Part shown: positions 2,269 to 64,000 of the stretch, piece by piece
How the letters are laid out: every line of letters begins with the position of its first letter
How positions within the stretch are numbered: the first letter of the stretch is position 1
NCBI GenBank assembly: GCA_002118135.1
Contig: BDIU01000371.1
Location: forward strand, 142,530 to 206,529
From: Trebouxia sp. TZW2008
Taxonomy: Eukaryota; Chlorophyta; Trebouxiophyceae; Trebouxiales; Trebouxiaceae
Length of the DNA stretch: 64,000 nt
Direction: 5' to 3'
Translations under genes and position numbers: made by a program
Notes under the pieces: model-generated
What the model was told of the DNA's origin: nothing
Databases searched by the model: none
What the model saw: the letters and a program-made list of their open reading frames with translations, nothing else

Positions 2269-5200
2269 TCATTGCACGCCATACAGACCTCCATACATGT
2301 TAAAATACACACTGCTGCTGGGATCCATTTGCGCCCCTTGAGCTGCTAGCATCTGTTGTTGAACATTGCCCTGAGGGGCATTTAGCTGCGGCCCCAAAGC
2401 CTGTTGTGCATGCATGAGCGCCTGCTGCTGCAGCTGCGCAGCGTGCTGCTGAGCGTGCTGAGGTAGGGGCATTTGAATTTGGCCGGGCAGTGCCAAGCGG
2501 TTGGGCAGCTGCATCCCGCTTTGCAACTGCAGCATGGGGTTCAAAGAGCCCAGCATGTTCTGATTACCCACAAACCCTGCCTGGCTCTGCATGGGTAGCA
2601 TGTCCGAGAACATGGTGTTTTGTCGAGGCTGATGACGGCCCCAAGAGCACTTCAAGGCTTTGTTGCCTATCATCTGGCCGTTCATTGCTACTATGGCTTG
2701 CACCGCTTCTATGTGGCTTGTGAAGTTGACAAAGCCATAGCCACCTGCATGTGTGCAGATGCCTTGCTTGTACTCATGTCAAATGTAGCTCAATCAGCTC
2801 GGGTATGCAAGCATTGCTTAGAAGTCAGTTGGGCAGAGATTGCAAGTTGACTTGCAACAATGCACAGATCACGTCATGCACAGTGCTGCATGTGACAACA
2901 TAAGCAATACTGATCAAGGAATGGTCAAAAGCTGCTGACTGCTCAAGCGCTGTCATACTGAAAAGCCTGCTGCAAAGAAATAGCGCATGCATGCATTGTG
3001 TTGCATACAAAATCACAATTCATGCAGTCCTTTTTCCAGCAGCTCAAGCAATGTGCTGCATGCTTTGTGAACAGTTGATGCAACCGGGCATGCTGTTGAG
3101 CAGTTTGATGCAACGCAACTAAATTTGTTGTATTTGAGTCTTGTGGGTTCTGCAAAATTTGACATCTCAAACCCAAACAATGGCTATCTTCTCAACATCT
3201 CAAGGACACACAAGCTTGAGCTCAGTTTCCTCACCTTTCCTGTACAGTTTGACATCTATGACATGACCAAACTGGCTGAAGTGCTGGCGCAGCTCAGCAT
3301 CTGAAAGGTCTTGAGAAACATTGCCCACATATACATTGCAGCTTTGAGGGTCTGCTCTATCTACAGTGATATGATCTAGAGTGTTGGTGTTCTGTTTGTG
3401 CTGTGCCCAGCCACATCTGACACGCCTGCAAGTTGTAGTATCCAGGGCTATATATATATAGAGAGTATATCCAGGGCTTCAGCATCTGCCCTCAACATAT
3501 GCATTTGACACTCGCATCAATCTTTGGAAGCTAGACCAATGCTGACGGCAGGGCTCACTGATGCTTGTACAAACCACTTGTGCACAGTACACATCAACTC
3601 CTGCATTCACTCATGCAAAGTACGATTGAGTCATGCTCAGCACAGTATAGCTGCTTTGCCAAGCAATGTTGGCAATGAACAGCCCATGCTAGCGCTGCTT
3701 GCTGACATCTGTGCAGGTCAGACAGGCATTGTCTGTACTGCAGCGAGTCAAGGGCAACAGGGATTTGAAACCTCAATTGCCTGATTCATTAATGAGTTGT
3801 TGCCAAACATTCCAGCTGTTGTATTCACCACCTGATCCCAATTGTCTGCAGGTCTGGTCACTTTATTGATGCACGCAGCTCACTGCTGCCTGGTTACAGT
3901 CTGACTGGCAGGACAGCAGCATGATGAAAATTCAAGACCACAAGAAATGCACATTCTTGTGCTGTTCTGGTCGTTTGCAATGTTTTGCACACAGCAGATC
4001 CATATACTGTTCAGCCATGTAATGAGCAGGCGAGAGGGACTTATTTGTGGTCCACAAACTTGTTGTTCATCAGCAACGTGCAGCACAAAGCATGCAGATG
4101 CATGTGTCATGCAGAGAATCATGCAGCCATATGGCGGCAGCTTGAGAGAATGCTTACTTGTGAAACACAAAGCTTGTTGCTCATCAGCAGTCTTCAGTAA
4201 AAGCGCGCAAATGCATGTATCATTCAGGGAACAGTTTGGTCATGTCATGAGGAGTTGAGAGTGCTTTTTTGTGACACAGCCTTACTCCACATCAGCAATC
4301 TTCAGCACAAGGCATGCAGATGTGTCAATCATTCGTTGAACATGTCCGTCCTGTCATAAGATGTTGAGAGGACTTACTTGTGACCCACAAGCTTGTTGCT
4401 CATCAGCAACAAAGCAGCATGTTGAACACTACAAAACAGTGCTACTGCTTTTGCAGAATAAAGCAAATTGCATGCAAACTCATGCACTTTCTTCAAAGAC
4501 ATGTCAGTCATGCACGAACAGGTTGAGAGAGCTCACTTATGACCCACGAGCTTGTTGCTCATGAGGGCAATGCCGTTCTCTGCAGCCTCTTTGGTTCTGA
4601 AGGAGACGAACCCATATCCTTTGCTCCTGCATATTCAAAAAAATGGTCAGTGCTGTCATGTTGGCTGCGCGCGTCGATGTCGGCAGCCTCTTCAATTTTG
4701 AAGGAACCGAACTCATACCCTTTGCTCCGGCATATACAAGACAAATCAGTGCTGTTACGACTGCTTATACTCATGTCAAATCATTTCTTCATGTGCTCAT
4801 CACACAGACTTACAAAGACTTTGAACCATGACAGAAAAGACTTGTTCTTGTTGCTAGCACAAGCTGTGCAGACTAGCTGTGAAACTTTGCATGTGCGCAT
4901 GGCTTGTGCTGGCAATTTTCACAGTAACGTGTATGCAGGACAAGTCCACATTGGCTGCAACCAACACAGATTGGCTGCCACTTACAACTTTGTGATCATG
5001 AGCTTACCTGCCAGTTGCATGATCACGTTTGACTTTGGCATCTGAGCAGTCACCACGATGGACAAGTAGATTAGATATGTGCAAGTTTCAGGACATTGCA
5101 CTGGCAGGACATGACAAGACCATAGCTGGCTGCCACTTACAAATTGTATGGAGAAACTTAGCTCACCTGCCAGTTGCGTGATCCCATTTGACTTCAGCAT

Positions 5201-8892: not shown

Positions 8893-9244
8893 TCAGCGCA
8901 GCTGCTTAGAGACTAGACGAGGGCATTCAGAATTGCTTTATGCATAGCTGCGCATCACACGTCATTGATATAAAGCTTGTGTATGATCAGGTCAGTGATG
9001 GAGCGCTTGCTGAAATTGAGTGTGTATCTGAGCTGCTTGGCTGAATCATACTCCTGAAGGTGATGTTGTGTGCTACCAGCACCATGCTTGCACTCAAAAA
9101 CAGGGCAGGGCAGCATAACTTACTTTGTCACTGCTTATGCTGATGTGTGAAGCATTCTTCAATTACGCAAGCATGATCAGGACACAATGGGCATGTGGCT
9201 GCTTGTTAGACATCATTAAAGGTGTAGGCCAGCATGACACATAT

Positions 9245-13300: not shown

Positions 13301-13543
13301 GTTGCTGAGTTTGGTGAGGTCTTGCCTCCCATCACAAAGGATGGCCCCAAGAACGTCACTGGAGAGCTAGACTTGACACAATCCCTGGTTGGAGTCAAGG
13401 CCGACGAGACCAAGGACACACGTGGCTACAAGCCATCACCAATCGGCGAGCCAAACTTTGCTAATCTCAGTCATGTGACGGTTGCTGAGCCTGGACGTGT
13501 CAGCCCAGGAGTCAAGACACACCTTGACTACTCTGAGTTGTAG
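10381..13543 (+). CDS. Desiccation-related protein, pcC13-62 family (ferritin-like)
   Basis: Nine exons: 10381-10480, 10599-10673, 10761-10863, 10972-11086, 11367-11511, 11815-12086, 12437-12553, 12859-13008, 13295-13543. The total is 1326 nt (441 aa) with consistent phases. A second ATG at 10399 gives 435 aa and is preceded by an acceptor-like tctctgcag. Both starts yield a signal peptide (MMIALLALGFTAVLA). The body matches the plant desiccation-related protein layout: a helix with VECLEGQFDTWGTFG, then GGPTPIGARKAPL, a helix ending NEQGHAL, then the LGATGNKGLAG region and EPFGETAQQVFARISAMRD. The Glu and His residues in the first two helices resemble ferritin-like metal ligands. The family accumulates during drying in resurrection plants and is abundant in lichen algae; its biochemical activity is unsettled. 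Secretion is predicted from the signal peptide. Confidence 0.9.
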
Positions 13544-13645
13544 GCAGCTGATCTGCTGCTCATCACAACTCTGAGTGCAATGCCTGTTAGTGGTGGCTGA
13601 ATCAGGACTTGTCAGCTCAGGAGTCAAGACACACCTTGACTAGAG
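13496..13645 (+). repeat. Direct duplication of the desiccation gene's terminal coding segment
   Basis: The segment at 13496-13535, just before the stop codon, recurs at 13606-13645 in the 3' UTR. Both contain 'aggagtcaagacacacctt' followed by gacta. The offset is about 110 bp. The second copy lies after the stop and is not translated. Confidence 0.8.
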
Positions 13646-14526: not shown

Positions 14527-17500
14527 ATGCCGCAGAACAGCAAGCCGGAGGTGAGTCGACCATCAAGCGAGTCTGGCGATCTCAGCTATGCGACCTGGGC
14601 CTCAGACTTGCGCACTTTGCTAATGTTCCCTCATATATCGAAGTTGAGCCGGCTGCATCGCAGGACTTAGAACAAGGCAGACATCATGCAGAAGAGGAAC
14701 TCCTCCTTGCAGAGAGGCACACAAGCAGTCAGGATCAAGAGCTAACTGCTCGCCCAGCCGATCATGCGCTCACCACCCTGCATGTGATCTCCAGCAAACC
14801 AGGGTCTGATGAGCTCAACACAGAGCATGCCTTGAGGCTCAGGGGCGTTGGCCTGGCTGCGCTTTCCACGGTGTTCCAGGCAGTCATGAGCGTGTGTGCC
14901 AAAAGCCTGGGTATGCTTTCTTTTGCCTTATCAAATCTGCCCTGCCCTGCCCTGCCCCGCCTTGCTGTTGCTCTGCCACCCAACCCTCTGTAGAGACTGC
15001 AGCAGTGACAAACAAGTCACTGCTGTATCTGCTTTGCAGCACATAGGCACTGTGTCTGCTGACAGCACGCGTATTTTGCACGTGCATCACGCCACAGATT
15101 TAGTCACACCAAAGGGTCTAGCTCCCTGGAAGTCAATCAAGCTCTAGGCAGTTGAGATTAGATAGGCTTGTTTGTGCCCTGTGACATAAATCGTGAGCGA
15201 ATGTACGCCTCAGCTGGTGAGTTGAGTGGATCTGAGGGTGTCTGCAGTTGAGACTGCAATGAAGCTGTCTGTGCTGTCTGCTGCGCTGCTGCTGTCGGTC
15301 ACGAGCGATAATGCACAGGCAGTAATCCAGGTGATGTTATGAGATTAGATAGGCTCCAAAAGATCAACATGGCTGTAGGCAACTCATTGAGTTGACAGCA
15401 ACAGCCCTTGCATGTTGGCAGCTAACATCTTGAGAGTTCGCAGCCCATGTTCATGCTGCAGCTGAGCACTGCAGCATGCAATCATGAAGTACATGCCATA
15501 TCAGTATGTACATATATGAATACACGGCACCATGCCAGCCAGCAGGCAGTTATGCCATGCAGTACATGCCATGCTAGTGCACAGGATCAGTTGCATATAA
15601 TCACGCCATCCTGGCACACAGGACCAGTTACATACTGTCACGTCAGCCAATACACAGAACTAGTCACATAGATCTACGCCATGCCAATACGCAGAACGAG
15701 TCATGCAATGCAGTACATGTAATGCCAATACAGAGCTGATTGCATGGCACATGTGTTGGGCAATCTTGCCACCAGACTGAATGCATTGTCCTGTGCCTGC
15801 ATTTGAGTTCAATCGCCTATCTCCGATGCTGTAACAGCAACTATATCAGCTTTTCGCTCAGGCGGCAAAGCCATGGGATGCAGCACTACTTTGGGTGGTT
15901 GTCATTGTGGTAAAGTGAATCACCACACTCTACAATTCAGTGATGAGTTCTCTGAAACACTTGCACATCCAATTCCCTGTGCTGCATATCCTTTATCAAA
16001 ACTGCACCTGAGCGCTCCATCCTTGCAAATCTTTGCGCACTGCGCATGACCTATTGCGTATCATTGCGTACGGTGGGTCACTGTTGCAACATGTGGCCAG
16101 AACATGATACGTTCTGCCCTGTCCAGTCATGGGACACAGCATTGGTTTGGATTGTTGCCACTATGACAGTTGGTCAGATCATGATGTGCTTTGCACTGTA
16201 CAGGGCAATCCGGCATACCTGTGTTCCAGATTGCTCTAGTGCGGGGTATAATGGTCCTGACCATCAGCTATGTCAAGGCTGTCAAAGGCACTCACCATGC
16301 CTTCCCACACGCTCTGGGCAAGAGGTGTGCTGACACACTGATGAGTGTTGCATATTCTGACATGCTGTTGAGACATATGCGCTGAGACACTCTTGAGGTC
16401 ATAGTCTGCCCAAATCTGGCTTTGCTCAGAGCAACTTCAACATGCCTTTCCACATGCTGTGAGCTAGAGGGTGCTGACACACTGAGTGTTGATATGATGA
16501 CACAGTCTGAAAAATTTGCAATCTGCCATGACAGTCAGCTATGTCAATGTTGTAAAAGGCCTTTATCGCGCCTTTCCACATGCTCTGGCCAATAGGTGTG
16601 CTGACACACTCTCAACGTTGTACATTCTGCTATACTCAACAGCTAACAATCAATGGGGACTGACTGTCTTTGGGATCGAACAGCGGGTCATGCAGACAAT
16701 GTCGAGAGAAAAGTTTGTGGTGCCTCAAAAGAACAGAAACCTGTAAAGCGTTGTATGTACATCATACACTGCAGAAAATGTACTGGACCATTTCAAGGCT
16801 GTCAAAGGCACCCACCATTCCTTTCCACATGCTCAGGGCAAGAGGTGCTGACACACTGAGCGATCATTTGCTAAAACACCCTGAAGTTTCATACTCTGCC
16901 ATGACCTCCAGCTGAGACCATTTGCAGGCGACGTCCTTGCAGCACACAGCTCTGGGTGCTGCTGCCATGAAACAGTATACAAGTTCAAGTGCTGCAAGAA
17001 GCGCTGCATGGCAAACATTTTGTGAGCTACAGTCTGCACTGAGCAGAGCTTGTCATCAAAACAGTCACAGAACTCCAGGCAGTAGTACATGATAGGGCTT
17101 ACATGGCTAGGATGGCTTTCTCTGGGCCCTTTGCAAAGAAACCTGCTGCCATTCAGCAGCTCCTTCACAATAAAGCTGGTTTCAAGTATTTGGATGTTTG
17201 GTGGCTGTGGGTGGACTCACGCTGCCTGTTGCAATGCCTGTTGCTTGGTGCAGCAAGTGGTTGTTGGGTGAGGGGCTTCCTGCATTTTATAAGTGTATGC
17301 TCACTTACATTGCCACTCCTCTTGCTGCTTGTTGGAAAGAGTTGCTGCAATGCCTTGTGGACAGTGCAGAGAGTGGTCAGGTGCTTTTTAGCCCTGCTGT
17401 GCCAAACACCAGTTTCAGCTATCATAACACCTCTTCCTGCATGCAGGAAATGGTTGCTAGTGTTGAGGGGATCCCTAGGATTTGGCGTGGTGTGCAGCCT

Positions 17501-22265: not shown

Positions 22266-25200
22266 TCAGTATGGGTATGCAGAAGGTGGCCAGAGGGGAG
22301 GCGGAGGAGGGGCCTCAGCAGCTGCACTCAGTGATGTTGCTGACTGTGCTTGTTGATACTGGTAGGGATATGATGTTGGAAATGGAGCTGACATCATGGC
22401 AGTTGCAGCATGCATGGGTGCAAAAGGCGTGTGATAGCCAGCCACCCTGGCATGCATGGCAGCCTGAGCAGCATACAGCGGGTGAACCCCAGCAAAAGGG
22501 TTAGAGAAATGGGATGGGTATGGGTTACTGAAAAACCCAGGAGTCTGGTGTGAAGCGAAAGCGTGACTGCCAGGGAAAGACTGATCTGCTAAACCAAGAG
22601 CTGCGTTCTGTTGAAGTAACATATCTTGCTGGCTGCTCTGATTGTACCCATTGACAGCTTGCATGTTATCGTACAACTGACCACCGGGCAGGCTGGCAAA
22701 GTGACCAGAGCCCACATCCCCCGTGGGGAGTTCAGGGGGGTCAGGGGGGGCCTGCTCAGCCGGCGGTGGCCACTGCTGCTGACTAGCTTGGTAGGGCTCC
22801 TGCTGCAGCCCCCTGTGCTGCTCTGGGTTCTGCCTATCGCTATGCTGCAACTCATGAACCCTGTTGGCTCCTGAGTCTTGCCTATGCAAAGATCCTTGCA
22901 TGCCGCCACCAAACACAAAGGGCTGCCTGTCATGCCCAGCATGCTCTCTCTGCTGTTGAGCTGAAGCACTGTCTGGCTGTTGTGGGTGTTGGAAATTGAA
23001 GGCAAAAGGCTGGCTGGGCGCTACTTCAGCCTTGATGCGCTTCAAGGGAGGTTGAGTGGCGATGTCATGCTGGGTGGGGTAGTCAGGCTGAGCACGCTTG
23101 GAGCCAGCTGCTGACGGCAGCTCAGGCAGAGGCTCACCCTGCAATTTAGCCATTCTTTGTGCTTGTTGATATCCTGTGACGCAGACTGCAAACAATGCAA
23201 CATCTCACAGAGCACCTAGCCCTAAGCGCAGCTAAGATCATGCTGGGCTGGGCTGTGCTGTGCTGAATGCCCTTGATGCCAATTCACTTTTCATGGTGAA
23301 TGTGCACCACACTGCCAACCCACCAAGTTTGCTCAGTAGCATGCATGGCCTTACCCACACAGCAGGGTCTGTGCCATGTGAATGGCGTGTTCAGCCCAGG
23401 AAAACCATGCAACAGCAAAAGCAGCTTGAAGAGCTTCATGTATCAGTTTTTTGTCACAGCATGCCTGACCCATAACGCAGGTTCAGCACCATGTGAAATA
23501 GGGCACCTCTGAGTGTGGTACTTTTTCGCCTTACTTTCATGGTAGGCCTTACCTGTAGTGCAGGCTCTGCGCTATATGGGATGATTGCATTCAAACCCCC
23601 AATCAAAACGCATGTAATCTCAGGTGCATGGACTGCCTCACCCATGAAGCAGAGTCTGCGCCATGTGGGATGGGTGCATTCAGCCCAGGAAATCGATCAG
23701 GGGAACCTACAAGTTAAAGCCCAAGAAACTACACCATGGGGAACAGAAAAAACACGATACATGCAAGTTCAGTCTCAAGGAAGACCTTACCCATAAAGCA
23801 GGGTCTGCGCCATGTGGGATGGGTGCATTCAGCCCAGGGAACTGCACCATCTGTTGTCCATGTTGAGGCTGATCTTCAGCTGCCTGACTTGCAGCAGCTT
23901 GACTGGGCTTGGCAGCAGCCTTGCTGGGCTTGCCACCTGTCTGGTCATCAAAAATGAATAGCTCTTCATCTTTCTGCTTGCTGTGCCTGCAAAGAGCTGA
24001 GAGGTGGGGAGCCTGGGACAAGCTTGTGAGGATATCAAAACAGGGTATCAGCACCAGAAGTGCCTGGTCAAAATTGTTGAGGGTTGAGATGAGTTAGTGC
24101 ACAAAAGAAACAATGCAGGGCATGCTCTGGCGCTCCATCTGGGGTTTCAACTCAAAGGCTCCCCTGATGTAGTAATGTTTGCGACATAGCGCTGACGCCA
24201 GGGTTATTGATCTGAAGCTGTCATGCCATGCCATGCCACTCTCCTGACTGATGGCTTGCTGAACACCAGCTATATAGCTGACAATTGCACGCTAGGAAAA
24301 GCAGACAGAGCTCTCACTTGTACATGGGTGGGTAGCCAAGCTGCTTCATCTTATCTAGCCAGGGAGGGGGGTCAAGGGGACCCAACCCCAGGGCATCTCT
24401 GGTCTCCGGTGACAGCTGCCCCGGTTTCAAATCTGCAAAGTATTCCTCACCGTCTGGCAGCACTCCATGTGCCATGGCAGCGGGGTCCTGATAGTACCTG
24501 CATATCAGTTGCATGATGTTGCTATGTGACAGCTGCCACGTTTTCAAATCCAAAAAACTTTCCTCACTTTCTGGCAACTCTTTATTTGCCATGGCAGCAG
24601 GGTCCTGGTAACACCTGCGTGTGAGTTGTATGGTTTTGTTTGTTAAAGGGGAGACATCTTTGATGATGTGACACCCTCAATTGGCATTCAAATATCCTGG
24701 CATTGGCAACATCTTCCTGGACATCTGGCACAGTGGCAGCAGAACTGAGATAGTACCTGCAAGTTGCCCTGGATTTCAAGATGGCAAAGCTTTTCTCACT
24801 GTCAGGCAGTACTCTGCCATAGCAGCAGGGTACTGACTGATCCTGCATGAAGATCTGGGCTCTGGAACATGTATGGTCTGGCTATATAAGGGCGAGAGGG
24901 GTATGTCGTTTGTGGACATGCTTGGTCCTATTCTGATGTTGTGCTCTGAGGGGAGTGATATTGTGCAGCATCCGTGCTGCGCAGCAACTCGTTACATGGG
25001 GCATCAAAGCATATGTGCACAATGCAGTGTTGACCGATCACTTGTAGCAGACCAGCGACACTCCAGATTCACCAGAACAGCGATGTGCAACCAAGCAGCT
25101 TGACAACGACAGCAGGCATACAACGCGCGAATATAAGCTTGAACATGAGCTTGAAGAAGAGCAAGGCATTCCACCACTCCGATGTAACAAGATGTTGTGA

Positions 25201-44973: not shown

Positions 44974-47900
44974 ATGCAGATGCTGGGTTTTGCGACTGCT
45001 CTGACGCTTGCACTGACCGCCGTAGCCGCGAGACACGAAACCTTCACCACCAACGCCAGCAGCAGAACTCTGCTAGCCGATGCTCAAGCTGGTAGTATGC
45101 ATGTTTTCGGCTCAAAAAGGTCAGCCTCGCAACTTCGCTTTGATCCCCATGGCATGTGCAGAGCCGGCGGACAAAGTCATATGTTTGAATGTCACCGTTG
45201 CACCGGATGTGTATTGGCTTTTGATCCGGTTCCTGTCAGAATGTCGCATGCGTCTCCCAATCGAAATGTTTCCGCCTGACTAGGTCAAGCAGTTTTTGCA
45301 GGGTGGCTTATTCGTGTTTGCTTGCTCTGTATGCACTCTCTTCTGACCTTGTTCGTGATTTTGCAAATCTGCAGATCGGGCCTTTCAGATCAAAGCAGTC
45401 AGCAAGCAGCTTTGCAGACAGCAAGCAAGTGGGTTCTGTCGTTCAAGCCGGAGGTAGATGTTCGGGCCATCGAGGCTGTATGTGTCGAAGCCGAGCTGCC
45501 TTCTCAGGGCCGATTCGATGGCAAATGCAGAAGGCTGCACACTGGGAGCGTGCTCAGAGGCATTTCGGGTGCGCGCGCTTGCTTTGCCCCAATGTGAACA
45601 CCATTGTGTGCTTGCGTGCCGATTTGCCTGCTTGCTTGCTTGCCTGCTTGTTGGCTGGCTTGCCTGCTTGCTTGGTCGCTCGCTTGCTTGCTTGCCAGAA
45701 TCTACAGCGAATTTCATATGGCTGAGGAGGGTGCTGTCAGAAGTTGCGCTGCAAGGCTCACCATCATCTGGTTTGCAGGGTCATTCACGTCAGCTGACAT
45801 CCAGCGCATCCAAACAGCTTTTGGCGATAGCCTTGTGTCTGCAGAGAAGGATGGTGTCATCAAGGTACACAAAAGTGGTAACCAAACCTGATAGATGTAC
45901 AGTCATTGCCAGTTTGTGGCACATGCAGTCAGCCTTGTCGATTGGCAAAAGCATGTAAGAAGTTGGGTTTTGCTTTGGTGCATTAGCCGTCACATGCAGT
46001 GCTGCTTCAAGCTTTCAAGTTTGTGTCTTGTCTGACTATGAGCTTGTATGCGTATAGCATTGAACCAGTCACATCGCATGATGCTCAGAAGCTGCATTGC
46101 AGGGCATGTCACCATGCTTTCCTCAGCTCTCCTGACCCAGTCATTTGGTGTCTAGAGATATCATACTGATATCATATGCCACGCTGCTCTGCCATTTCTG
46201 ATCCAGTGTATACTGCTGTGTTTCAGATGGCCTGCTGAATAGTCACCCACCATGCACAATAAACTACAACCAGTACTGACTGAAGGAATGTCAAGATAGA
46301 AGTATAGTAAGCGTTCCATAGTTGAACATGACTGATATTATGTTAAGTGGGAGCATTCTGCTGACAGGTTGCGCAAGATGTGTCCCTGGCCCTCTTCAGC
46401 CCCAACCCCTCTTCCCCTTCCTCTTCTTCCGCCTCGCCCTTCCACTCTGCCCCTTCCTCTTCTTCCCTTTCCTCTTCTTCCCCCTCATGGGACAGTCCAC
46501 CTGACCAGTACAGCGAAGACGAGGACGCATCTGGCAACGGAACTCCTGGAATTGAGAGCAGCAGTCTAGGAAATGGCACTGTGCCCTGGGGATTGGACAT
46601 GATTGACCAACGTTCTCTGCCCTTGGATGGCCTTTACCGCTATGCTGCACTAGGTATGTACATGACACCAGCTGCATACCATGATATGCATACCACACAT
46701 TACATGAGTACTGTACTGGCTGAAGCTGAGAGCAGCAGCCTAGGAAAGAAAACTGTGCCTTGGGTATTGAACATGATTGACCAACCCTCTTTGCCTCTGG
46801 ATGGCCTTTACCGCTATGCTGCACTAGGTAATGTACATCACACTAGCAGTAATCCATGCTATGCACATGATGCAGTAACTGTATCCCACTGGCAGAACTG
46901 TGCCTTGTGCATTGGACGTGGTGGCCCAGCGCTCCTTGCCTTTGAATGGCCTGCACTGCTATGCTGCACTAGGTATGTACACACTGCAAGAATGCCAGCT
47001 GGGCACAATCAATCAGCGCTCCTTGCCTTTTGAAGGCTTTCACTGTTATGCTGCACTAAGTGGGTGTCAGTAATGCTGCATTTGGTAACTGATACTTTGA
47101 AACATCTGCATGTTGCAGTTTTCTCACCAAAAAAATGCATATTCAGCAACAAGCTTGCCATAATGCTGTGCAGGGACTGGTGTGCATGTGTACATGATTG
47201 ACACCGGCATCAGACTCTAACATGAGGACTTCATCACATTAATGGCTCTCCCTGCAGCTGAAAGAGTTTTCTTCAACAAAATCAGCTTTCCCCTTTCCCC
47301 CCCAACTAGGTCCTTTGAGCTTCTGGATCAAGGAACAGGCTCAGTGTGATGCTGTGCGTGGACAGGAGTGCGTGTGTACATGACTCACGTCAGCAGCAGC
47401 TGAGACCTCTTTCGATGATCTGGTCACATGGACGGCTCTCTTGGTCACATGGACGGCTCTCTTGGCAGCTGGATGAGCCAAGGTCACAGTCAGCTTACTT
47501 GGTCTCCAAACTAAGCTTTTTTGACAGCAAAGGCTCAGTGTGATGCTGTGCAGGGACAGGAACGCATGTATATATGATTGACACCGACATCAGACTCTCA
47601 CATGAGGCCTTCAATCAAATCGACGGCTCTCCCTGCAGCTGAAAGAGTTTTCTTGAACAAAATCAGCTTTCCCCTCCCCCACCCCCAAAACTAGGTCCTT
47701 TGAGGTTCTGGATCAAGGAACAGGCTCAGTGTGATACTGTGCAGGGACAGGAGTGCATGTGTACATGATTTACATGAGCATCAGCTTCTCTCGTAAGAGG
47801 TCTGGTCACATGGACGGCTTTCTTGGCAGCTGGATGAGTCAGATTCACAGTCAACTTACTTTGTTTCCAAAATAATCTCTCTTGACTAGGCAAAGGGTCA

Positions 47901-50900
47901 GTGTGATGCTGTGCAGGGACCGGGGTCCATGTGTACATGATCGACACTGGAATCAGGTTTTCACACGAGGAGTTTGGTTACATAGACGGCTCTGCCGGCA
48001 GCCGTGCTCAACCTGGCTTCTCAGTGTTTGGCGACAACAACAGCAGCGACTGCTATGGACATGGCACCCACACTGCAGCAACTGCAGCAGGTAAGCTTGT
48101 TGGGAACAACACAAACAGTGCATTTACTGCAGCAGGCTAGAGAGTGTGAGAACCTCAACAGTGTCTGGGGTTGGCGACAACACCAGCAGAGATTGTAACG
48201 GCACCCACTTTGCAGCCACTGCAGCAGGTATAATTTTCTTTTGCGTTTCTGATGTTTTGAGTTTCTTGTGCACCGCCTGACGGTTTGGTCTTTGGTCATG
48301 ACAACGGCAGCAGCAACTGCAATCAGCACGGCACACAAACTGCAGCAAGCCTGGCAGATCACTTTTGTGAATACCTTCATTCTTGACAGGCACAGTCCAG
48401 CTTCTCTGTCTTTGACGATATCAACAGCATCAACTGCCACAATCAGGGCACACACACACTGCAGCAATTGTGGCATGCAAGCTGCTGTGTTGACGCACTG
48501 TTGATGAGCACAGCCAGGCTTCTGTATTCGGCGACAACAACAGCAGTGACTGCTATGGACATGGCACACAAATTGCAGCAACTGCAGCAGGATAGTGTTG
48601 CTGCTGCTGTTCTGAGATTGATGAAGTCTTAATGTGCACAGCCAACCTTTTGTACAATTGATGACAACAGCAGTCGGTTGCATTGTGCTCACTTTCCTTG
48701 GTCTGCTTCTGCTCAGTGTTCCATTGCTTGTGCTCCTTTTCTTCAAGCTGCCGTTTTCTTCTTGTGTACAGGCTCCTCTTCTTGTTTACAGTGCGCCTCT
48801 TCCAAACAGTGTTGCATCTCTTGTCCAGGTTTGACATATGGGGTGGCCAAGAATGCAACACTGATATCAGTGAGAGCCTTGGATTGCACAGGTCAAGCCA
48901 GCTATTCTGACGTCATTACGGTAAGCACTGAGCAAGCTTTTGCTTGACGTTCACTTGTGTCATTGACACGGCACCGTATGACTATTAGGCAATCCCAGGG
49001 TCTGCAGCTTTGCCCTATTGACAGCTGCTTTCTGCTCATATTGATGCGTGAGCAGAACTTCTGAGTTGATAGCTCAAAATAGACGGGTGATCTCACTTGT
49101 TTCAACACCCTGCGATGGGTTGCAACTTGCAACAAGCAGCGGTCACTGTGGATGCTTGCATTGTGTAGACTGTAAATGCTTGCATTGCTGACCCAAGTAT
49201 TGCAAGTGTCATCCAAGCAGCTCAGTTCTGCTCACATCAGAAGGGTCATTTCCTTCAGGCTTGCTGATGACTAACAGGGTTGCTGTCATGCAGGCTATGC
49301 AGTAGGTTGCAGACAATACCCAGCAGTGGTCAGCACTTACATTGCTGGAGCCAAATGTGCAGCGCTCAAGCAGGCTGTTGACACAAAGCCTCAAACTTGA
49401 CTATTCCCTTCCTCCCCTTTTGCAGAATGCCTACTGCCAGCAATGCTGTGTTGCAGGCTATGCAGTGGGTTGCAGACCATGTGCAGTACCCAGCAGTGGT
49501 CAGCGCTTCCATTGCTGGAGCCAACAGTGCAGCGCTCAATCAAGCAAGTTTAATGACAAACAATCAGGCTTGAGTGTTCACTTTTGCTGTTCACAGACTA
49601 CCTACTGACAGCAATGCTTCTGTGCAGGCTATGCAGTGGGTTGCAGACAATGTGCAGTACCCAGCAGTGGTCAGCGCTTCCATTGCTGGAGCCAACAGTG
49701 CAGCGCTCAATCAGGCAGCAGAATCCCTGGTCAAAGACTTTGGCATCACAGTGGTCGCAGCAGCTGGTGAGTCTGTGCAAAGCAGTGCACAACTTTGCTG
49801 CTTTGGCCTCATCAGCACACTTTACACTATGCAAGAAAGCGTCAGTATGGAGCCCCATTGCAACCTGTGCAGCTACAACACAAGCCACCTTGTTGGTGAC
49901 CACGAGTGAAAGTGCGGCAGCTAATTAGTTGGGCACAAGTATGCTCACCTGGGTCATTGTTGTAAGCTCTTCAACATGTTGCGCACATGTTGCTCAAGGT
50001 CTGCTCTTTTGGTCACCTGCAAAAGATGCCCAGTGAACTGAATCTTGTTTTCTGTCCTGCCGTCTTCCAGCTTCTATCCTGTACACTGACAAATCATGCA
50101 AGACGTGTGGACTTGTGCATGCTCCATTGTCTGTACATTGCTGACTTGCCTGCACAATACTGTTACAGGCAACAAGAACGTTGACACATGCGACAAGTCT
50201 TCAGCGGGAGCAGCTGGGGTCATTGCTGCGCTCCTGTATACTGAATGATGCACCAGCAACTCATGAAAGATCTGCAATTTTCTCAAATTATATTGCAGGC
50301 AATAACAACATGGACACATGCGGCAAATCGCCAGCAGGTGCAGCAGGGGTCATTGCTGCAGGCGCTGTGGACAGCCAAATGCGCCGCTGGTACTCCAGCA
50401 ACTGGTGAGCCTTTTGTCGCCTTCTTCCTTCATGTTTCCTTTCCGCCTTTGTCACTGTCTCTCTTCTGCTTGAATTGTCTTGTTGTGATCATTGGCGATC
50501 ATTGGCCATCATTGAGTTTGCCAGAGAGTTCTGTTTGCGACGGTACACTCAGGATCCTCAAAACATTGCGCAACTGCTATAGCAATTGTACGCCCTGTTT
50601 GGAACTGTATGCATTCAATGCATTGAATGTTCCAAAGAACGCTTAGGGTTTAGGGGTTCTTTAGACCAAATTCGTTGAGACAGTGTGAGGTGAGACAGGC
50701 TGATGGCCTGCAGGTGCAACTGCACAGCTGTACATGCACAGGGCGTTGATGTGTTGAGCGCTGACTTCACCTGAGCCACAGCTTTGGCTGTGAAGAACGG
50801 CACCTCAATGTCAGTACCCATTGCAAGCACAACTGATGTTGTTTGATGCTTTACAGGGGCAACTGCACTGCTGTGCATGCACCAGGTGTGGATGTCTTGA

Positions 50901-53900
50901 GCGCTGGTTTCACCTCAGACACGGCTTCAGCCGTGAAGACAGGCACCTCCATGTCAGTGCCGCATACAAGCGGCGTTGCAGCCCTGTTCCTTGAAACCAA
51001 TCCAGTAAGATTGCTGCTGTTACTGAAGCAGTCACGGTACAAAGACCAGTTGGCCTGAAGCCAGTGTTGTGCAAATGCAGCTGTTGCTGCTATTGTGCTT
51101 GTTGCTATGTCCTTTGCCTCACAGCAAAAATCAGCGAGTGTGCTGCTATTGTCGCTTTTGGGTCGCATTTTTGATAGACGTCCTGTTGATTTGTTCTGGA
51201 GGACTTGAGATCAGCTCAGTGACAACTTCGCTCTGTTGATGGCGCTCCAGCATGCCAGCAGCAACCTGCCTGTCCTTGTTGTGGTAGCTGTGAAGCCAAG
51301 CTAGCCTTCCACAATTATTAGCCTACATGGCAGCATGTCACCTGACGGCGAAACCGCTCCTGAGACCCATCCAATGAATGTCCATCTTTGTCTGCCCCTG
51401 CAGATTTGAAAGCTCAAATGATGGCGAGTGCAGCTCTGGGATTTTCCAGGACAATCCACAATGACGCTTGCAATCATCACTCAACAGCCTGCATGGCAGC
51501 ATGTCATGTCACAACTGTCTTCCTGTTCTCACTCAGTCCACCTGCTGCATGCTCACTCTGTTCTTCTTCTGTACAGGAAGCTTCCCCGACAGATGTCAAA
51601 GCATCACTTTGATCCAGGATGATCCTTATATGGCTGACAGCCTGAGTGGCAACTCAGAGCAAAAGTCTTTCTCTGCTCAGGCAGAATCATTGTAGCATGC
51701 TCATCTTCTTGTTCTACACAGGGAGCTTCCCCAGCAGATGTGAAAGCCCACATGATGGCGAGCGCAACCCATGGGTTGAGCCAGGATGACCCCTCCGTGA
51801 TTGACAGCTTAAATGGCAGCTTACTGCAAAAGTCTGGTCAAATTCACTATAACATGCTAACCTTCTTCTTCTGTACAGGGAGCTTCCCCAGCAGATGTCA
51901 AAGCCCAGATGATGGCAAGCGCAACCCATGGGATGATCCAGGATGATCCCTCGATGGTAGACAGTCTGAATGGCAGTGTGCCTGGCCTGTTGAACATCTC
52001 CACCACTCCCAACTTGCTGTTGTACAGCATGGTCAGCAGCCAGGTAAAAGATCTTGTGGGATCACTTGAACAATATGAACGTCACTTGTCATTGACTGTC
52101 ACAGCTGCTGCGCTGCTTGCTCTTCACCTTGATTGTGTTCTTACATGCATTAGCATCTGCAGCATGGCGACATGGTTGTCACATGTCTTGTTAGTAATGT
52201 ATCTGCAAAGGACATGCCACACAATAGATTGCCTTTAGACAATTGAGCCCATCTGAGGTTGCTGCTATGCCTTCTCAGCTATGTCTTGAACTCAAAGTCC
52301 CAAAAATACTTTTTCAAGTGACCTTGCATCCATACTTGCCTGCAGTCTGCATTGACAGAGGTAATACAAGCATCTGCCATATGTTGCAGATGCATTCAAT
52401 GTGGGATCTGCAACTTATGCTCTCATCCATCATTTAGCAATGATGAAACACATGCAATGAACTTCGCTATTGCTGTTGTGAATGCAGGGCATCATCAAAC
52501 CATCAGTGCTCAACTTGCTTCCACCCCCGTCGACTTTCATATTCACAATCACTCTGGCAGCAGCACCGAGTCAAGATGTTCAGGTCAGCATTGTGCCACC
52601 TTCTGCCGCCTGGAACCCTAACCAAGCCCTAGCTGCTATCACCCCAAGTGCCCTCACCTTGACTGGGGTTAATTGGAACACCCCTCAGCAGGTCTTCGTC
52701 TCACCAAGTACAGTTGCTGTGGGAGACTGGTTCCTTACCATCAATTACAGGTAAGCAGGCAATCATCTTCTTTGTGGAATGATGGTATTATCTGTAGTTC
52801 AAGATGATGTCGTACTTGTTTTCGTGTCTTTGCCAGTGCACAGATCTACTGCACATTTGCAGCAAATCTGAAGTCAGTTATGTCACATAAACCCTGCAGT
52901 ACAAATCACTCATAACCTTGACGTGAATGTGTGCAGTCATAGTCATAGGCATCATTACGGCCTTTACAGAATCCTAAGCCCTGAAAAATATCTGTTGCTG
53001 CCCTGTCTAGTCACTCTGCTTGCAGGTTGCTGAGCAAATTCGAGCTCAGGTTGTCAAAACGGGCTGTCCAAGAAGCAGCATTATCAATACAGCTTTTGCA
53101 TTCAATTGTTGCAGCTCACACCACCTGCTGACATCAAAGTTGGCCAATATTCATTAGTAAAAAGAAGGTGTTTGTTCTGCCAGAAGCTGACACGATTACA
53201 ACCAGGATGTACATCTCACAGTGGAAACAGCTTCTGTGATGATGACTACCAAACAGCGAATGTCATTAGCCATTTGCTGACATCATACCTTCCAAACAGA
53301 CTACACATGTTGCAATGACAACAACAAGCACAGTGAACAAGGCTGCACTCTGCAGGAGTGGAGACAGCTTCTACAATGGTGCATATCAAACAGTCAAGGT
53401 CAACAGCCACCAACCCCTGACAGGTCAGACAGCTGCAAACCCTAGAGTCATCCCACAGCTGCCCTTCTCAGTCACAGACAGCCTCAGCAGCTTCTCAGAC
53501 AACATCACGCAAGCCTGTGCTGAAGTCACTGGCAGTGGTCTATCAGGTGAATCTCAAACTCAGAATGAAGCATGTCACACGCTCTGCAGCTGTCTGAGTA
53601 CATATCAAAATTTCATGACAATGGTCTGAAGATTGTTGCACATGCCAGCGTAAGTGCTACAAGAGTGCAGCCTAAGTACTATCTTGTCGGTCCAGCTTGG
53701 TTCAGTGTCGGGCTTACTCAATCATAGCCTGCATGTGATTGATAACACAATCTCGGCTGTATTTGTGCACTTCAATGTGCGTTTGTGTGTGTATGTGCAT
53801 GATGTGCATATGAGCAGGAGGTAGCATTGCTTGACATGTTGCTTGTGGCATGCACGCCTCTTGCAACAAGCTGATCAGTCATGACATGCAAGGCCTGATC

Positions 53901-55210: not shown

Positions 55211-55336
55211 GAAAATTGCATGTTTTGTGTGCTGCCTATCCTCTGTAAAAGCCCTTGCGCCAACAAACAGGCCAAAACCAAAGCCAAAATCAGTAATCAC
55301 CAGAGGCTGCTGTAAGATAACTGTGAACTTGAAGTA

Positions 55337-58952: not shown

Positions 58953-58987
<35 letters not shown>

Positions 58988-61900
58988 GACTAACTGCCTT
59001 CCACATACCACACTACATCATGTCTGCCAAAACTAAGAACCGTTTGATATTGTTCCAAATCAGAAACTTATACATGCCATGCCAAATGCAGCCGTTAGAC
59101 CTATGATATATGAACAATGCCAGAGCAAGAACAAATGTGCCATGTGCAGACAAGTAAGAAGCAGCTGCAGAATTCCTGATGGCTGTTGGGGGTTATGGCA
59201 CAGCGCGCATGTGAGGATTAGTCGGTACAGCTGCCACCTGCACTGCATCATCTGTGCCAAAACAAGACTGCCAAACAATGACGTGTCACAACAAAAGTGC
59301 TGTTGATGAAAATTGGCTTGAGCTGATGTCTTGTGCAGACAAGTCAGGAGAAGCTGCAGGTATTTCTAACGGCTGTGGGGGGCATGGCACAGTATGCACG
59401 TGAAGATGAGCCTGTGCAGCTGCAAACAGTGAGTACTGTTTCCTGATTTTGCTTCGTTTTCTTGTCCCTGTTCTTCTTTCTCCTTTTCTCTTTCCCTTAC
59501 TATGCTTCCTCTTTATCTTCCTCTACCTTTTCATCACGGCGCAGTATGTAGTGAAGATGAGCCTGTGCAGCTGCAGACAGTGAGTGCTTATGTTCTCCCT
59601 TGCTTATTCATTTTGCTCTTCCTCTTTTTGTTTTGACTCTTTCTTCTTGCCGGTCTATCTTCTGTTCTTCTTCTTCTCCAGGCTTCTGTGGCTTCCTTTG
59701 GTTTTTCTTCTTCTGCATTCTTGATCCTCCTCTTCTCCCTCACTGTTTCACAAACCGTTCTGTTGCACTTCTGCTCCACCTGCTGTAGCTGCATCAGTAC
59801 ATCTGCTTATGTAACTCCTGTGTAACAGCTGGTCAAGGCATGATTTGAAATCGGCTCCTCAGCTCCTGCCTTTGAAGCTTGTTTATGAGTTCCCTGTTCT
59901 TACTCAATCAATCGATCGATTGATCAATCGATCGATCAATCAATCAATCAATCAGTCAATCAATCAATCAATCTGTGTTCTTACTGGTAATGATTGTCTC
60001 CACCGTGCGCTTCTTCTTGGTCTTTGCACATCAGCGTGAAAGCTGCCATGTGTGCCCTGCAGACAACTGTGCAGTCCTTGAGTGTCAAGTCCACTGGAGA
60101 CATAGTCAGCGCTGGGCTGTGGGGGCTTGACCGTATTGACCAGAAGCCCATAAAGCGTGACTACATGTACCATTACTCCTCCACAGGCTCTGGTGTGCAT
60201 GTATACACTGTTGATACGGTAAGATATACCAACAAACACAGAAGTCAGCAATATGATGATTTCCTTGATCATTGGAGGCTGTGCTAATGCTGATGCTGCT
60301 GAGGTTGCATGAATGCCTGCACGGTGACACGTGCTTCACTGCACGTGAAACAAAAGGTGTCTAATATTGTATTGATAGCAGTCATGAATAGATTCGAAAG
60401 TGTAAACTTGCAAGCCTGTGCTCAAGCCTGAACTGCTGAGTTGTTGCAACAGCTGACCCGTGTGCTGTGTTCAAAATGCATGCCTGAACAGTAACACCTT
60501 TTTTGTTTCTAGCGTGGGCTTTCAATTTGTCTGACATTCTTTGCAAGTTACATTGGATGTTCAGTTCTCTGCCCTTATGTACAGGGCATCAATCCATATC
60601 ATGAGGAGTTCACAGATGCTTCAGGCAACAGCAGAGTTAGCACTGCCTACAGCTATGACACCACACAGTATGACGACTGCAACGGGCATGGAACTCACAT
60701 CACTGGAACCATGGCTGGCCGTCACTATGGCCTGGCTAAGGATGCTACTATACACTCAGGTAACTAGTTGACCATACAATGGAACTTGTATCTCTGTGTT
60801 GTGTATGACAGACAACTCTGTCAGCAACAGCAGAGTCAGCACCGCTTACAGCTATGACACCACACAGTATGATGACTGCAATGGTCATGGGACTCACATC
60901 ACTGGCGCCATGGCTGGCCGTCACTATGGCCTGGCTAAGGACACAACCATTCATTCAGGTGATGTGGTTTTGCCTGCTGACAAACAGTCAAGATCTGTCC
61001 TTTTATGTCACTGCACAACATGACATGACATGACATGACAGCAATGGTCATGGTCAACCTTTCTTGTTTGTCCTTCCTGCTTTCTCCTTCTTATCCTTTA
61101 TTCATGCTGTGCATGCTGTGCAGTGAAGGTGATGGACTGTGATGGAGAGGGTGCCAAGTCAACCATAGTCACATGGCTGAAGTGGATCCCAGACAATCTA
61201 AAGCCGCCTTCTCTTGCGTCTGTTCTTCTTGTTTGCTGCTGCTTCTTCTGCTTCTTGTTCTCATGCTGTGCATGCTGTGCAGTGAGGGTCATGGACTGTG
61301 ATGGCGAGGGTGCCATGTCGACCATAGTCACAGGGCTGGAATGGATTCTGGCCAACTTGCAGCTGCCAGCAGTGGTGCTGATGTCCATTGGCGGTGACGG
61401 CACACTTCTTCTTGACCAGGCATGTGAAGCCTTAGTCAAGGCTGGAGCAACTGTGGTGGTGGCTGCTGGCAATAGCGCTGAAGGTGAGAAATCCGTAATG
61501 ATTCATCAAATTGTTGTGATTCCTCGACACAGATGAAGTCTGTAATCATTTGTGACGGATGATGCAACATACATGCAACAGCATCATGTTTAGGAAGAGG
61601 AGTTCCTGAAACCAACTTTTGAAAATGTGACGACAGCCATCAGAATTGGTTCATTGAGCCTTGAGTACTTGCAGAACATTTGCTTGCTGGGCTCGGCCAG
61701 ATATGTATTCTTATCAAAGTGAGAAATATCAACAGCACAGACCAAATGAGTGCCTTCTCAGACAGTAGACAAATGGTGGACATTGCCCAAACTGAACAAG
61801 CTGTGGTCTTTTGAAGTGATGTCTGATGCTGATTGCAAGTGACAGCAACTGCAGGGGTGCAGCCATGATCACACTGGCAGCCATCAAAATCGGGGACCAG

Positions 61901-64000
61901 ATGCCTACCTGCTCAGATGGTGGAGTTGGTTCTGCACAATTGTTGATCAGGGTGCTTGGGCAGCAAGACCAGGTTCTTGTAAGACTTTAAGTCGTGACTG
62001 GTGTTGATTTCAGTGTTGTGTGATTGCAGATGCTTGCTTGCTGAGCCCAGCCAGAGATGCAGCGGTGATCACAGTAGCAGCCATAAAAAACGGGGACCAG
62101 ATGCCTGCCTACTCAGATGGTGGAGTGTGCGTGGACATCCTAGGACCAGGATCTTCAGTGCTGTCAGCCTACTATGGCAGCGACTCTGGCACATCGTAAG
62201 CGTTACTTCTTTGCAGAAGTTATAAGTTGACAGACCCTGTAACATGTCCATGGTGTGACTTCTTGGATCAGGATCTGCAGTGCAGTCAGCATACTATGGC
62301 AGCGACTCTGGCAGGTCGTAAGCTGTCCTGACTGTGGCTATACATTTTTCTCAGATAGCCACTTGTCAATGACTTATGAATTGCGTATACACATTTGCAT
62401 CACAGTTGCATCACAGGTGCTCTTCAGTGCTGTCAACATACTACGGCAGTGACTGTGGCACATTGTAAGCTGTCTTCTGCCTGTGTCGATTTGTGTAGCT
62501 ATTGTGAAGCAGATTTGTCAGTGTGTGTGTCTGTGTGACAACTGCTTAGCTGTCGTATAGTTGGTGATTACACACTGCCTGCTCCTGCTCCTGCTCCTGC
62601 CCCTGCCCCTGCCCCTGCCCCTGCCCCTGCTGCCTTTGCCCCTGCCCCTACCCCTGCCATGCTGTTGCACACGCAATTGCATCTCCTCACTGCTGTATGC
62701 GCATCACATGGGTCTTGCAGCCGTGTACTCTCGCGTGTGACGCCTCAATGCAGCATGCTACTGTCAACACTCCTGGGCATATTCATCATGACCATCCAAT
62801 ATTGATTTGTGTAGGGTGTTGAGTGGCACGTCAATGGCGGCGCCCCACATTGCTGGCATTGCTGCCCTGTACCTGCAGACCCACTCCTCTTCTGCCCCCT
62901 ATCAGGTTTGCCCATCTGCCTTTTGACTTGCCTTTGTTTTCTGCCTATTTGCCAATGAGCAGCCACCTGTTGAGCATGCATACATGCTTTTTGACTGGGT
63001 GACATCATTTGTTGGGTCTCAGACCAAACCCACTTGGGTGTCAAGCTGAGCTGCTTTTGGCAACAGTATGTCAAAGTCACCACAAATTATCAAAACCCCA
63101 AAGTTTTGCACTTTCAGCTGTCTCTTCGCAGGTGCAATCAGCTATAATGTCCTTAGGCACATGGGAGTCAGCGACCCAGCACCACTGAACACCGACACCC
63201 CCAACGTCATTGGCAACAGCCTGCTGGTACAATTATCATATAATTGTTATATAAAACTGGTCAAACACAACAACAAGATTAACTGGTACCTTGAAATTGT
63301 GTGCAGGTGCGGTTGGCTATCATGTCATCAGCCACATGGGGGGGTCACCGACCCAGCAGCACTGTCACAGACACCCCCAACGTCATTGGCAACACCCTGC
63401 TGTTGCAAGTTTCATACAACACCGGTCAAACACAACAACAAAATTTACTTATACCTTGAAATTGAGTGCAGGCGCGGTCAGCTATCATGTCATCAGCCAC
63501 ATGGGGGGTCACCGGCCCAGCAGCACTGAACACAGACACCCCCAACGTCATTGGTAACACCCTGCTGTTGCAAGTTTCACATAATACCAGTCAAACACAA
63601 CAGCAAGCTTCACTTATACCTTGTAATTGTGTGCAGGTGCGGTCAGCTATCATGTCATCAGCCACATGGGGAGTCATTGACCCCTCAGCACTGTATGCAG
63701 ACACCCCTAACGTCATTGGCAACAGCCTGCTGGTAGACCATGTCGTGACGCAGTGCAATGGAGTCGACTTTGTCAACATCACTGAGGCAAATGCCAGGTA
63801 CGCCTGCTCCTCTTCTTCCATGTGCAGAGTTTGTCAACATCATTCAGGCAGACTGCACATAAACACCCCTAACGTCATCGGCAACAGCCTGCTGGTAGAC
63901 CCTGTCGTGACACAGTGTAACGGAGTAGACTTTGTCAACATCACTGAGTCAAATGCCAGGTGCGCCTGCTCCTCTTCTTCCATGTGCAGAGTTTGTCAAC
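57399..64000 (+). CDS. Secreted subtilisin-like serine protease (S8), protease 2, 3' end outside window
   Basis: Ten exons seen: 57399-57472, 57621-58058, 58616-58820, 59339-59428, 60063-60218, 60585-60759, 61283-61483, 62030-62195, 62815-62905, 63637-63797. All join in phase, giving about 585 residues so far. A signal peptide (LLGALLLLSHASLLVA) and a Ser/Gly-rich N-terminal region (SSGSSASSSGSSGSS) precede an I9-type propeptide (TYMVVFQDAVSNAKIEQL). The mature-domain junction is AGLWGLDRIDQKP. Catalytic residues are Asp320 (YTVDTG, split by an intron), His356 (GHGTHITGTMAG), Asn443 (VAAGNSAE) and Ser508 (GTSMAAPHIAG), all intact. It is a diverged paralogue of protease 1, 3 kb away on the same strand. 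Exon 6 has an in-phase tandem copy. The C-terminal part is missing because the window ends. Confidence 0.9.
58952..58987 (+). repeat. (CTG)n microsatellite in protease 2 intron 3
   Basis: Twelve consecutive ctg units lie inside intron 3, followed by a cga interruption. Confidence 0.95.
59140..59590 (+). repeat. Echoes on both sides of protease 2 exon 4
   Basis: Upstream, 59146-59215 (tgtgcagacaagtaagaagc ... ggttatggcacagcgcgca) is a diverged copy of the whole exon 59339-59428. Downstream, 59541-59586 (gcgcagtatgtagtgaagat then gagcctgtgcagctgcagacagtgag) copies its 3' end and donor. Pyrimidine-rich tracts (59440-59535, 59595-59745) surround the downstream copy. Confidence 0.85.
59905..59973 (+). 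repeat. (ATCA/ATCG)n microsatellite in protease 2 intron 4
   Basis: About 70 bp of imperfect tetranucleotide repeat (tcaatcaatcgatcgattga then related units), partly self-complementary, sits about 90 bp before exon 5. Confidence 0.95.
60600..60958 (+). repeat. Near-identical in-phase tandem copy of protease 2 exon 6
   Basis: The segment 60812-60958 repeats 60631-60759 with few differences (offset 199-200 bp), including the GHGTHITG catalytic-His coding region. The copy has its own acceptor (tgacag) and donor (tcag|gtgatg). Both exon ends are in phase 1, so the 147-nt copy could be included as a 49-codon cassette after exon 6. Confidence 0.9.
61016..61041 (+). repeat. (ACATG) short tandem repeat
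   Basis: Five imperfect acatg units lie in protease 2 intron 6. Confidence 0.85.
61118..61370 (+). repeat. Echo of protease 2 exon 7 5' end
   Basis: The block 61119-61205 (gtgcagtgaaggtgatggac ... gagggtgccaagtcaacca ... aagtggatcccagacaatct) is a copy of 61278-61360 (gtgcagtgagggtcatggac ... gagggtgccatgtcgacca). The offset is about 159 bp. A tgctgtgcatgctgtgcagt stretch precedes both. Confidence 0.9.
61665..62472 (+). repeat. Echoes on both sides of protease 2 exon 8
   Basis: Upstream copies of the 5' part are at about 61672-61705 (cttgcagaacatttgcttgc) and 61846-61920 (gcagccatgatcacactggc ... cggggaccagatgcctacc). Downstream copies of the 3' end and donor are at about 62268-62322 and 62412-62470 (ctacggcagtgactgtggca then cattgtaagctg). 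The real exon is 62030-62195. Confidence 0.85.
62577..62659 (+). repeat. CCTGCY hexanucleotide minisatellite
   Basis: About 83 bp of cctgct units grading into cctgcc units lies in protease 2 intron 8. Confidence 0.95.
63120..64000 (+). repeat. Five to six tandem copies around protease 2 exon 10
   Basis: Copies of the acceptor and 5' part (gtgcrggtcagctatcatgt ... cacatgggg ... cccaacgtcattggcaaca) begin near 63131, 63305, 63471 and 63635 (real). The spacing is about 165-174 bp. A copy of the 3' part with donor (cccctaacgtcatcggcaac ... aatgccag|gt) follows at 63866-63960. The 'cttcttccatgtgcagagtt' flank is repeated at about 63812-63832 and at the window end, so another copy probably follows. 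Confidence 0.9.

Follow-up and report, generated by a model that had tools for sequence, protein, structure and literature searches.

Why do the introns of this stretch of DNA contain degenerate copies of the exon ends beside them? The window, that is, the whole 64,000-nucleotide stretch from Trebouxia sp. TZW2008 that was analysed, forms the end of a 206,529-base contig in a 68.5 Mb assembly, and an earlier note on it described tandem echoes of exon/intron junctions. The window was compared with itself by BLASTN. The first pass, which counted pairs less than 3 kb apart, gave 61 direct and 0 inverted pairs in that range among 68 pairs in all, and the second pass, at a cut-off of 45 bits and within 1 kb, gave 69 direct and 0 inverted local pairs. 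Five shuffles of the window in 2-kb blocks, searched at 45 bits and 1 kb, yielded 0 direct and 0 inverted pairs. The observation is confirmed. The pairs formed 30 arrays, where the note had counted more than 25, with minimum periods of 87-241 bp and up to 6 pairs per array, and at least seven credible genes, the number it had given, carried arrays:

1906-6399, minus strand: RRM gene, supported by P0125 (tblastn)
10277-14993: ferritin-like gene
15201-20509: EamA gene
22266-24514, minus strand: PSP gene
30037-35852, minus strand: multicopper oxidase gene, supported by P0001
45031-54329: subtilase 1, supported by P0005
60120-64000: subtilase 2, supported in part by P0005 and by solved structures

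The individual echoes and arrays were as follows:

4016..4565, minus strand: donor-side echo array, downstream of RRM exon 4536-4628
4579..4755, minus strand: acceptor-side echo, upstream of RRM exon 4536-4628
4972..5224, minus strand: donor-side echo of RRM exon 5166-5342
13480..13642, plus strand: echo of the interior of a predicted exon in the ferritin-like gene
16258..16913, plus strand: donor-side array, three echoes of predicted exon 16204-16324, EamA transporter
23332..23841, minus strand: donor-side array, downstream of predicted exon 23786-23986, PSP-domain gene
24409..24848, minus strand: acceptor-side and inner echoes of predicted exon 24318-24514, PSP-domain gene
31230..31386, minus strand: donor-side echo (31230-31292) of multicopper-oxidase exon 31337-31576, the echo being absent from P0001
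46553..47061, plus strand: echoes of subtilase-1 exon 46518-46694
47163..48002, plus strand: acceptor-side array, echoes upstream of subtilase-1 exon 47916-48090
48006..48615, plus strand: donor-side array, downstream of subtilase-1 exon 47916-48090
49281..49717, plus strand: acceptor-side array, echoes upstream of subtilase-1 exon 49622-49786
50163..50359, plus strand: echo linked to subtilase-1 exon 50295-50405
50711..50961, plus strand: acceptor-side echo of subtilase-1 exon 50858-51001
51392..51976, plus strand: acceptor-side array of subtilase-1 exon 51879-52043
59143..59588, plus strand: acceptor-side and donor-side echoes of predicted exon 59339-59428
60625..60960, plus strand: duplicated subtilase-2 exon end, with splice sites on both copies
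61061..61346, plus strand: acceptor-side echo of subtilase-2 exon 61279-61482
61852..62126, plus strand: echo upstream of subtilase-2 exon 62030-62200
62140..62485, plus strand: donor-side echoes downstream of subtilase-2 exon 62030-62200
63128..64000, plus strand: multi-unit array of acceptor and exon start, period ~165, running into the contig end, the live copy being assigned by the gene model

Some arrays were not intron echoes: by gene-model labels, 5 of the 30 window arrays were exon-internal, including coding repeats at 41764-42076, 42224-42390 and 37508-37784, and 2 of the 30 (20090-20485 and 38261-38465) were intron-only. The gene models underlying the arrays at 20507-21213 and 39555-40346 were not trusted. 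The repeats at 41764-42390 are acidic, lie within an exon and are tandem in the protein, and are distinct from the intron echoes. Since a 94% identical tandem repeat (63701-64000) runs into the end of the contig, the assembly probably broke there.

Gene models were obtained with a purpose-written hidden Markov gene finder trained on the window and 23 stretches from the same genome (285,100 bases, with the genes of one AT-rich stretch, L005, excluded), which converged on a donor like CAG/GTGAG and an acceptor TGCAG/G. Introns starting with GC made up 31 of the 407 predicted in the window and the sampled loci, which may reflect overcalling by the gene finder. Comparison with P0001 showed that the main exons were recovered and that false pieces were added to several of them. 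Since the gene finder also takes up some echoes as exons, counts by gene-model label are approximate. Homology served as a further basis: tblastn was used to map P0001 (multicopper oxidase), P0125 (RRM) and P0005 (subtilase 1 and partly subtilase 2), and solved structures back subtilase 2 and, outside the window, METTL3, ALDH12, a kinesin and a Sec7 GEF. P0001, a protein of 718 residues, was predicted on a contig of 2779 bases, which is less than the span of the gene at 30037-35852 (minus strand). With the false predicted exon pieces set aside, 716 of the 718 residues of P0001 are identical to that gene's product; it therefore appears to derive from a spliced transcript of this species. The remaining three matches of the multicopper-oxidase protein were from Trebouxia strains, at 56-62%. 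A GC content near 50% agrees with published Trebouxia genomes (PMC11523091 and PMC12712428). For the subtilase and the RRM gene, no same-species transcript was found among the best 120 protein matches of each. An Rfam scan at the gathering threshold and a tRNA scan of the window found nothing.

We then sampled the genome at 20 stretches, one position per 26th contig. L005 was removed from all counts after the first survey of the stretches, and the evenly spaced part amounted to 181,100 bases; 30 kb (L024-L026) was added beside two of the densest stretches, so that the sample, window included, came to 275,100 bases. The evenly spaced stretches contained 191 direct and 5 inverted pairs in 70 arrays, with a local duplicate in 69 of 261 predicted introns, and the added part contained 85 direct and 9 inverted pairs in 24 arrays, with a duplicate in 27 of 44 introns. 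Over the whole sample there were 345 direct against 14 inverted pairs, with an offset peak at 130-170 bp, and the minimum period per array peaked at 140-160 bp and dropped sharply above 200. Local direct pairs occurred in 15 of the 18 full-length spaced stretches (L005 aside) and were absent from L008, L016 and L023. Coverage by local copies ranged from 0 to 50% in the spaced stretches, one 10-kb stretch reaching 50%, and was 14% in the window, which is ordinary for this genome. Of the 124 arrays of the sample, by gene-model labels, 79 combined exon and junction, another 14 joined exon to other sequence, 12 were exon-internal, 18 were intron-only and 1 was intron/intergenic; none was intergenic-only, with 28 kb labelled intergenic.

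The position of the echoes relative to their exons was directional. Among the 159 echoes that were classed outside predicted exons, 118 copied one exon end only, and 107 of these lay on the expected side: 56 were copies of exon 5' ends located upstream and 51 were copies of exon 3' ends located downstream. The other classes were wrong-side echoes (6 and 5, 11 of 118), inner echoes (10 and 6) and whole-exon echoes (11 and 14). The side rule, which the earlier note had stated for the window, was obeyed there by 23 echoes against 2 (the window also held 1 whole-exon echo and 6 exon-internal ones). The note had made its reading depend on whether the pattern holds across the genome; in the spaced stretches it held, with 65 echoes on the right side and 8 on the wrong side, and the added part gave 19 and 1. 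This direction split is the signature of tandem duplication in which the live exon end stays contiguous with the rest of its exon.

The arrays were also anchored to exons. The exon part of an echo had a median of 71-73.5 bp, and 105 of the 124 arrays (85%, by gene-model labels) touched an exon. In the four homology-supported genes of the window, all 16 of 16 arrays, found across 16.2 kb of intron, shared at least 20 bp with a listed exon. One exon of this set is a weak call; exon 62030-62200 is supported by a solved-structure alignment, and exon 63633-63735 was assigned by the gene model. Uniform random placement under the same detection (300 placements each) left 42-53% of arrays touching exons at t up to 0.16, and geometry was rejected as the whole cause of the anchoring. 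At t 0.2 the figure reached 77%, but the exon parts would then be near 0.78 identity (interpolated), which is too diverged. Introns that were shorter when the events occurred could narrow the gap between observed and uniform placement.

We investigated how the echoes change after they arise. Gap lengths divisible by 3 made up 15% in columns that aligned exon with echo and 16% in non-coding columns (overlapping pairs counted), and gaps per mismatch were 0.073 and 0.112, respectively, the lower rate being as expected if indels hit the echo side only. The echoes thus decay like non-coding sequence. Many decoy splice sites were left behind, as the note had claimed: the GT was retained in 42 of 64 donor echoes, 34 of which reach the 10th percentile of predicted used donors, and the AG in 58 of 80 acceptor echoes, 49 of which reach the 10th percentile of predicted used acceptors. 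The decoy GT and AG change roughly as fast as the exon part of the echo, so the decoys look neither protected nor purged. The one echo that lies under transcript-like evidence, 31230-31292, is skipped by P0001, and in alignments of our gene models with the solved METTL3, ALDH12, Sec7 GEF, kinesin and subtilase homologs the duplicated segments of the models are extra. Very young echoes were scarce, with an exon part at least 0.92 identical in 8 of 72, which points to a burst in the past, a collapsed assembly or some other process.

The explanation we favor, and regard as reasonably probable, is that short tandem duplications (~60-200 bp), retained wherever the additional copy is removed by splicing, lengthen the introns. 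Segments of ~60-200 bp would be duplicated locally and frequently, now or in the past. A duplication across a junction would cost little, because the first copy on the donor side, or the last on the acceptor side, would stay contiguous with the exon, and the surplus exon end with its splice site would be absorbed into the intron. Every event would then produce a longer intron and a ghost exon end that carries a decoy splice site, left to decay as non-coding sequence, and repetition would build the multi-unit arrays. Splicing would ignore the decoys, as was seen in one case, and fill-in repair of staggered breaks may be the molecular cause. A local duplicate of at least 30 bp was present in 128 of the 407 predicted introns of the 275,100-base sample, and the median length of predicted introns was 389.5 bp with a duplicate and 314 bp without. 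This difference agrees with the note's proposal that existing introns are being enlarged, and the cases we inspected read as enlargement of an intron that was probably there before.

Neutral junction-crossing tandem duplication accounts for most of the pattern. The note's interpretation stands as far as in-situ tandem duplication across splice junctions is concerned, but plain duplication followed by decay does not reproduce the data in full: the offset between exon part and spacer, the 85% anchoring, the lack of any intergenic-only array, the 11 wrong-side echoes and the scarcity of young echoes all speak against it. What stands out most in the results is the excess of arrays at exons and the unequal preservation of the unit's two halves, for which possible causes are gene conversion, duplication aimed at exon ends, shorter introns in the past and gene-model errors.

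The uneven halves were examined in 72 pairs, in which mean identity was 0.837 for the exon part and 0.672 for the spacer, against a spacer baseline of 0.60-0.62. Neutral single-age simulations gave spacer identities of 0.758 at an exon part of 0.847 and of 0.733 at 0.819, and a simulation with a very high indel rate came nearer to the data (0.701 at 0.803). Exon-part identity is therefore too high for the spacer identity under neutral single-age decay, by a moderate offset; an earlier mixed-age simulation had given a far stronger mismatch, and the weaker single-age result was adopted. In pairs with well-conserved spacers, the exon part was no better conserved than the spacer, which argues that exon-like sequence is not simply less mutable. 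Spacer identity exceeded 0.75 in 20 of 144 real-echo pairs, and most others were near the baseline.

This offset could arise if the junction-crossing duplications are old and the live exon, held constant by selection, would template its own ghosts, so that short gene conversion refreshes the exon half and the intron half drifts past recognition. We regard this as possible but unlikely. It would explain why the exon part is far better conserved than the spacer and why spacer identity is flat across exon-part identity, but a flat relation is also produced by single-age neutral evolution, which leaves the moderate offset. In 31 pairs with unlike spacers the longest clean run was 0.336 of the length, compared with 0.289 (sd 0.015) after shuffling within codon position; none of 500 shuffles matched this patchiness, which unequal constraint along the live exon can also yield. 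In an ALDH12 array, two echoes have a common spacer (0.90), yet the exon part of one is 0.90 identical to the live exon and 0.84 to the other echo. A test of such incongruence, found in 9 of 12 comparisons, is biased toward incongruence by the slow live exon and by taking the better of two values.

Copying may instead have been aimed at exon ends, with ~70 bp of exon and ~10-35 nt of splice site duplicated around new filler, perhaps through staggered-nick repair with filler insertion or a process linked to transcription or splicing. In the pairs with unlike spacers (39 donor-side and 43 acceptor-side), similarity by distance from the junction was near-flat across the exon part and was lost within ~15 nt of donors and ~35 nt of acceptors, as such copying would leave it. 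The 16 of 16 arrays that touch an exon in the homology-supported genes fit as well, as does the share of bases in local copies, which was 21% for exon, 17% for intron and 6% for intergenic sequence as labelled. Against it, distal spacer similarity exceeded the cross-pair null in 21-23% of the unlike-spacer pairs, with 5% expected, and part of the intron was therefore copied; moreover, full-unit copies with well-conserved spacers account for 11 of the 64 echoes on the donor side and 9 of the 80 on the acceptor side, and 18 of the 124 arrays are intron-only. We consider such aimed copying unlikely. More generally, we tentatively entertain the idea that live exons keep templating intronic ghosts, gene conversion or exon-end-aimed duplication renewing the exon half as the intron half drifts. 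If so, introns would hold a standing, locally renewed store of exon variants with working splice sites, which could feed mutations back to the exon or seed new introns.

Tandemly duplicated mutually exclusive exons are exon copies that lie side by side, and the echoes might be functional alternative exons of this kind, or RNA-level splicing decoys under selection. Between the copies at 60625-60761 and 60824-60960 (137 aligned bases), 13 of 15 differences fall at third codon positions by eye count, and the segments 60586-60760 and 60812-60959, each with an acceptor and a donor, are candidate mutually exclusive exons as judged from the sequence. Third positions also account for 8 of 9 differences at 48508-48590, though with one frameshifting gap, and for 15 of 19 at 8207-8305 of the sampled stretch L010. 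The third-position share was only weakly heterogeneous among echoes (p 0.06). Mismatch by codon position was 0.166, 0.142 and 0.247 over all pairs and 0.063, 0.055 and 0.148 for the better-conserved junction echoes, and this stronger third-position lead may point to a small subset under coding constraint. A coding function of the echoes in general was rejected, since the frame is not kept and 66 of 117 independent echoes are broken by a frameshift or stop (51 are intact, with 41.5 expected). Stops were found in 40 of 1737 single-difference codons (overlapping pairs counted), about the neutral rate: 3.3% is expected if the echo holds all changes and ~2.2% if it holds two thirds, a share estimated from the proportion of synonymous changes and from the spectrum assumed for the live exon. 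Unlike mutually exclusive exons, the echoes are mostly one-ended (118 of 159) and broken, and only a minority, such as 60625-60960, may qualify; as a general explanation, function is very unlikely.

An assembly or gene-model artefact is hardly credible: the window does end at a contig end within a 94% tandem repeat, and the models of the self-trained predictor do include false exon pieces, but most copies are separated by many independent mutations, their orientation is almost purely direct, and the pattern is also present on homology-supported exons.

We also searched for sources elsewhere in the genome. One array and one echo (the latter in L010) were searched genome-wide, and each matched at its own locus only; in the window, no pairs at least 1 kb apart were found at a stricter cut-off, and 7 of 68 pairs were at least 3 kb apart at the looser one of the first pass. 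Mobile elements and introners were rejected, as no dispersed copies of the searched array and echo were found. A paralogous donor was rejected for the subtilase case, in which matches elsewhere in the genome were at most 55% identical in protein, and for the L010 echo, which occurs only at its own locus.

To our knowledge, junction-crossing tandem duplication is known from isolated cases. Vaughn and Bennetzen reportedly studied small tandem duplications from staggered-break repair in rice. The nearest published event that we found is in the potato RdRp gene, where a junction-crossing tandem duplication made a new intron from a cryptic donor in one event, with ten differences between the copies, and where the gene also has an 83 bp intron-internal duplication (PMC4974935). 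The resemblance lies in local tandem duplication over an intron-exon boundary, which yields an extra acceptor and exon start, but the Trebouxia copies are many, diverged and often multi-unit, involve both exon ends and appear to enlarge existing introns. According to a review, tandem genomic duplication was the only mechanism of intron gain that had been demonstrated in vivo when it was written (PMC3443670). In the model of AGGT exon-segment duplication (Rogers; Hellsten et al.), as outlined in PMC3443670 and PMC4974935, tandem duplication likewise supplies the splice sites, but the duplicated segment is exonic and splits an exon, whereas the Trebouxia segment spans an existing junction. Small tandem duplications arise by fill-in of staggered breaks (PMC8355091), which gives short direct tandem copies from filled complementary overhangs; the insertions in that paper are <100 bp and the duplications in this genome mostly 60-200 bp. 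Introners also remodel introns en masse and have green algae among their hosts, but they insert copies of themselves genome-wide (PMC9860276), unlike the copies here, which are local as judged from the one array and one echo searched.

We found no earlier report of dense junction echoes in searches of openly licensed full-text papers. Among lichen-alga genome papers, the text of PMC11523091 lacks 'intron', 'exon' and 'tandem', PMC12712428 lacks 'tandem' and has 'intron' once, in a reference, and PMC11126685 lacks 'tandem dup' and has 'intron' once. Single events are already known, and what is new here, as far as these sources go, is the density of junction-crossing copies. In this genome, junction-crossing duplication appears to be one of the chief sources of intron length, affecting about a quarter of predicted introns (69 of 261 in the spaced stretches). 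The echoes offer a natural series of copies for studying intron growth and the rate at which copies turn into new introns, and they raise the question of how the spliceosome distinguishes a live exon end from the adjacent ghost. Automatic gene prediction in such genomes will include ghost exons, which happened here too.

Several sampled stretches showed further features. L005 (1-10000) is AT-rich, with 41.5% GC, and contains many direct and inverted repeats, unlike the other stretches. L017 (1-10000) is the densest sampled stretch by pair count (L005 aside), with 50% of it in local direct copies that fall in a long multi-exon minus-strand gene model. In L004, positions 6692-9858 encode a predicted gag-pol-like retroelement protein, named from a reading of the sequence. 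At 400-1100 and 8000-8800, L010 contains adjacent related genes, each of which has upstream echoes of apparently one same exon.
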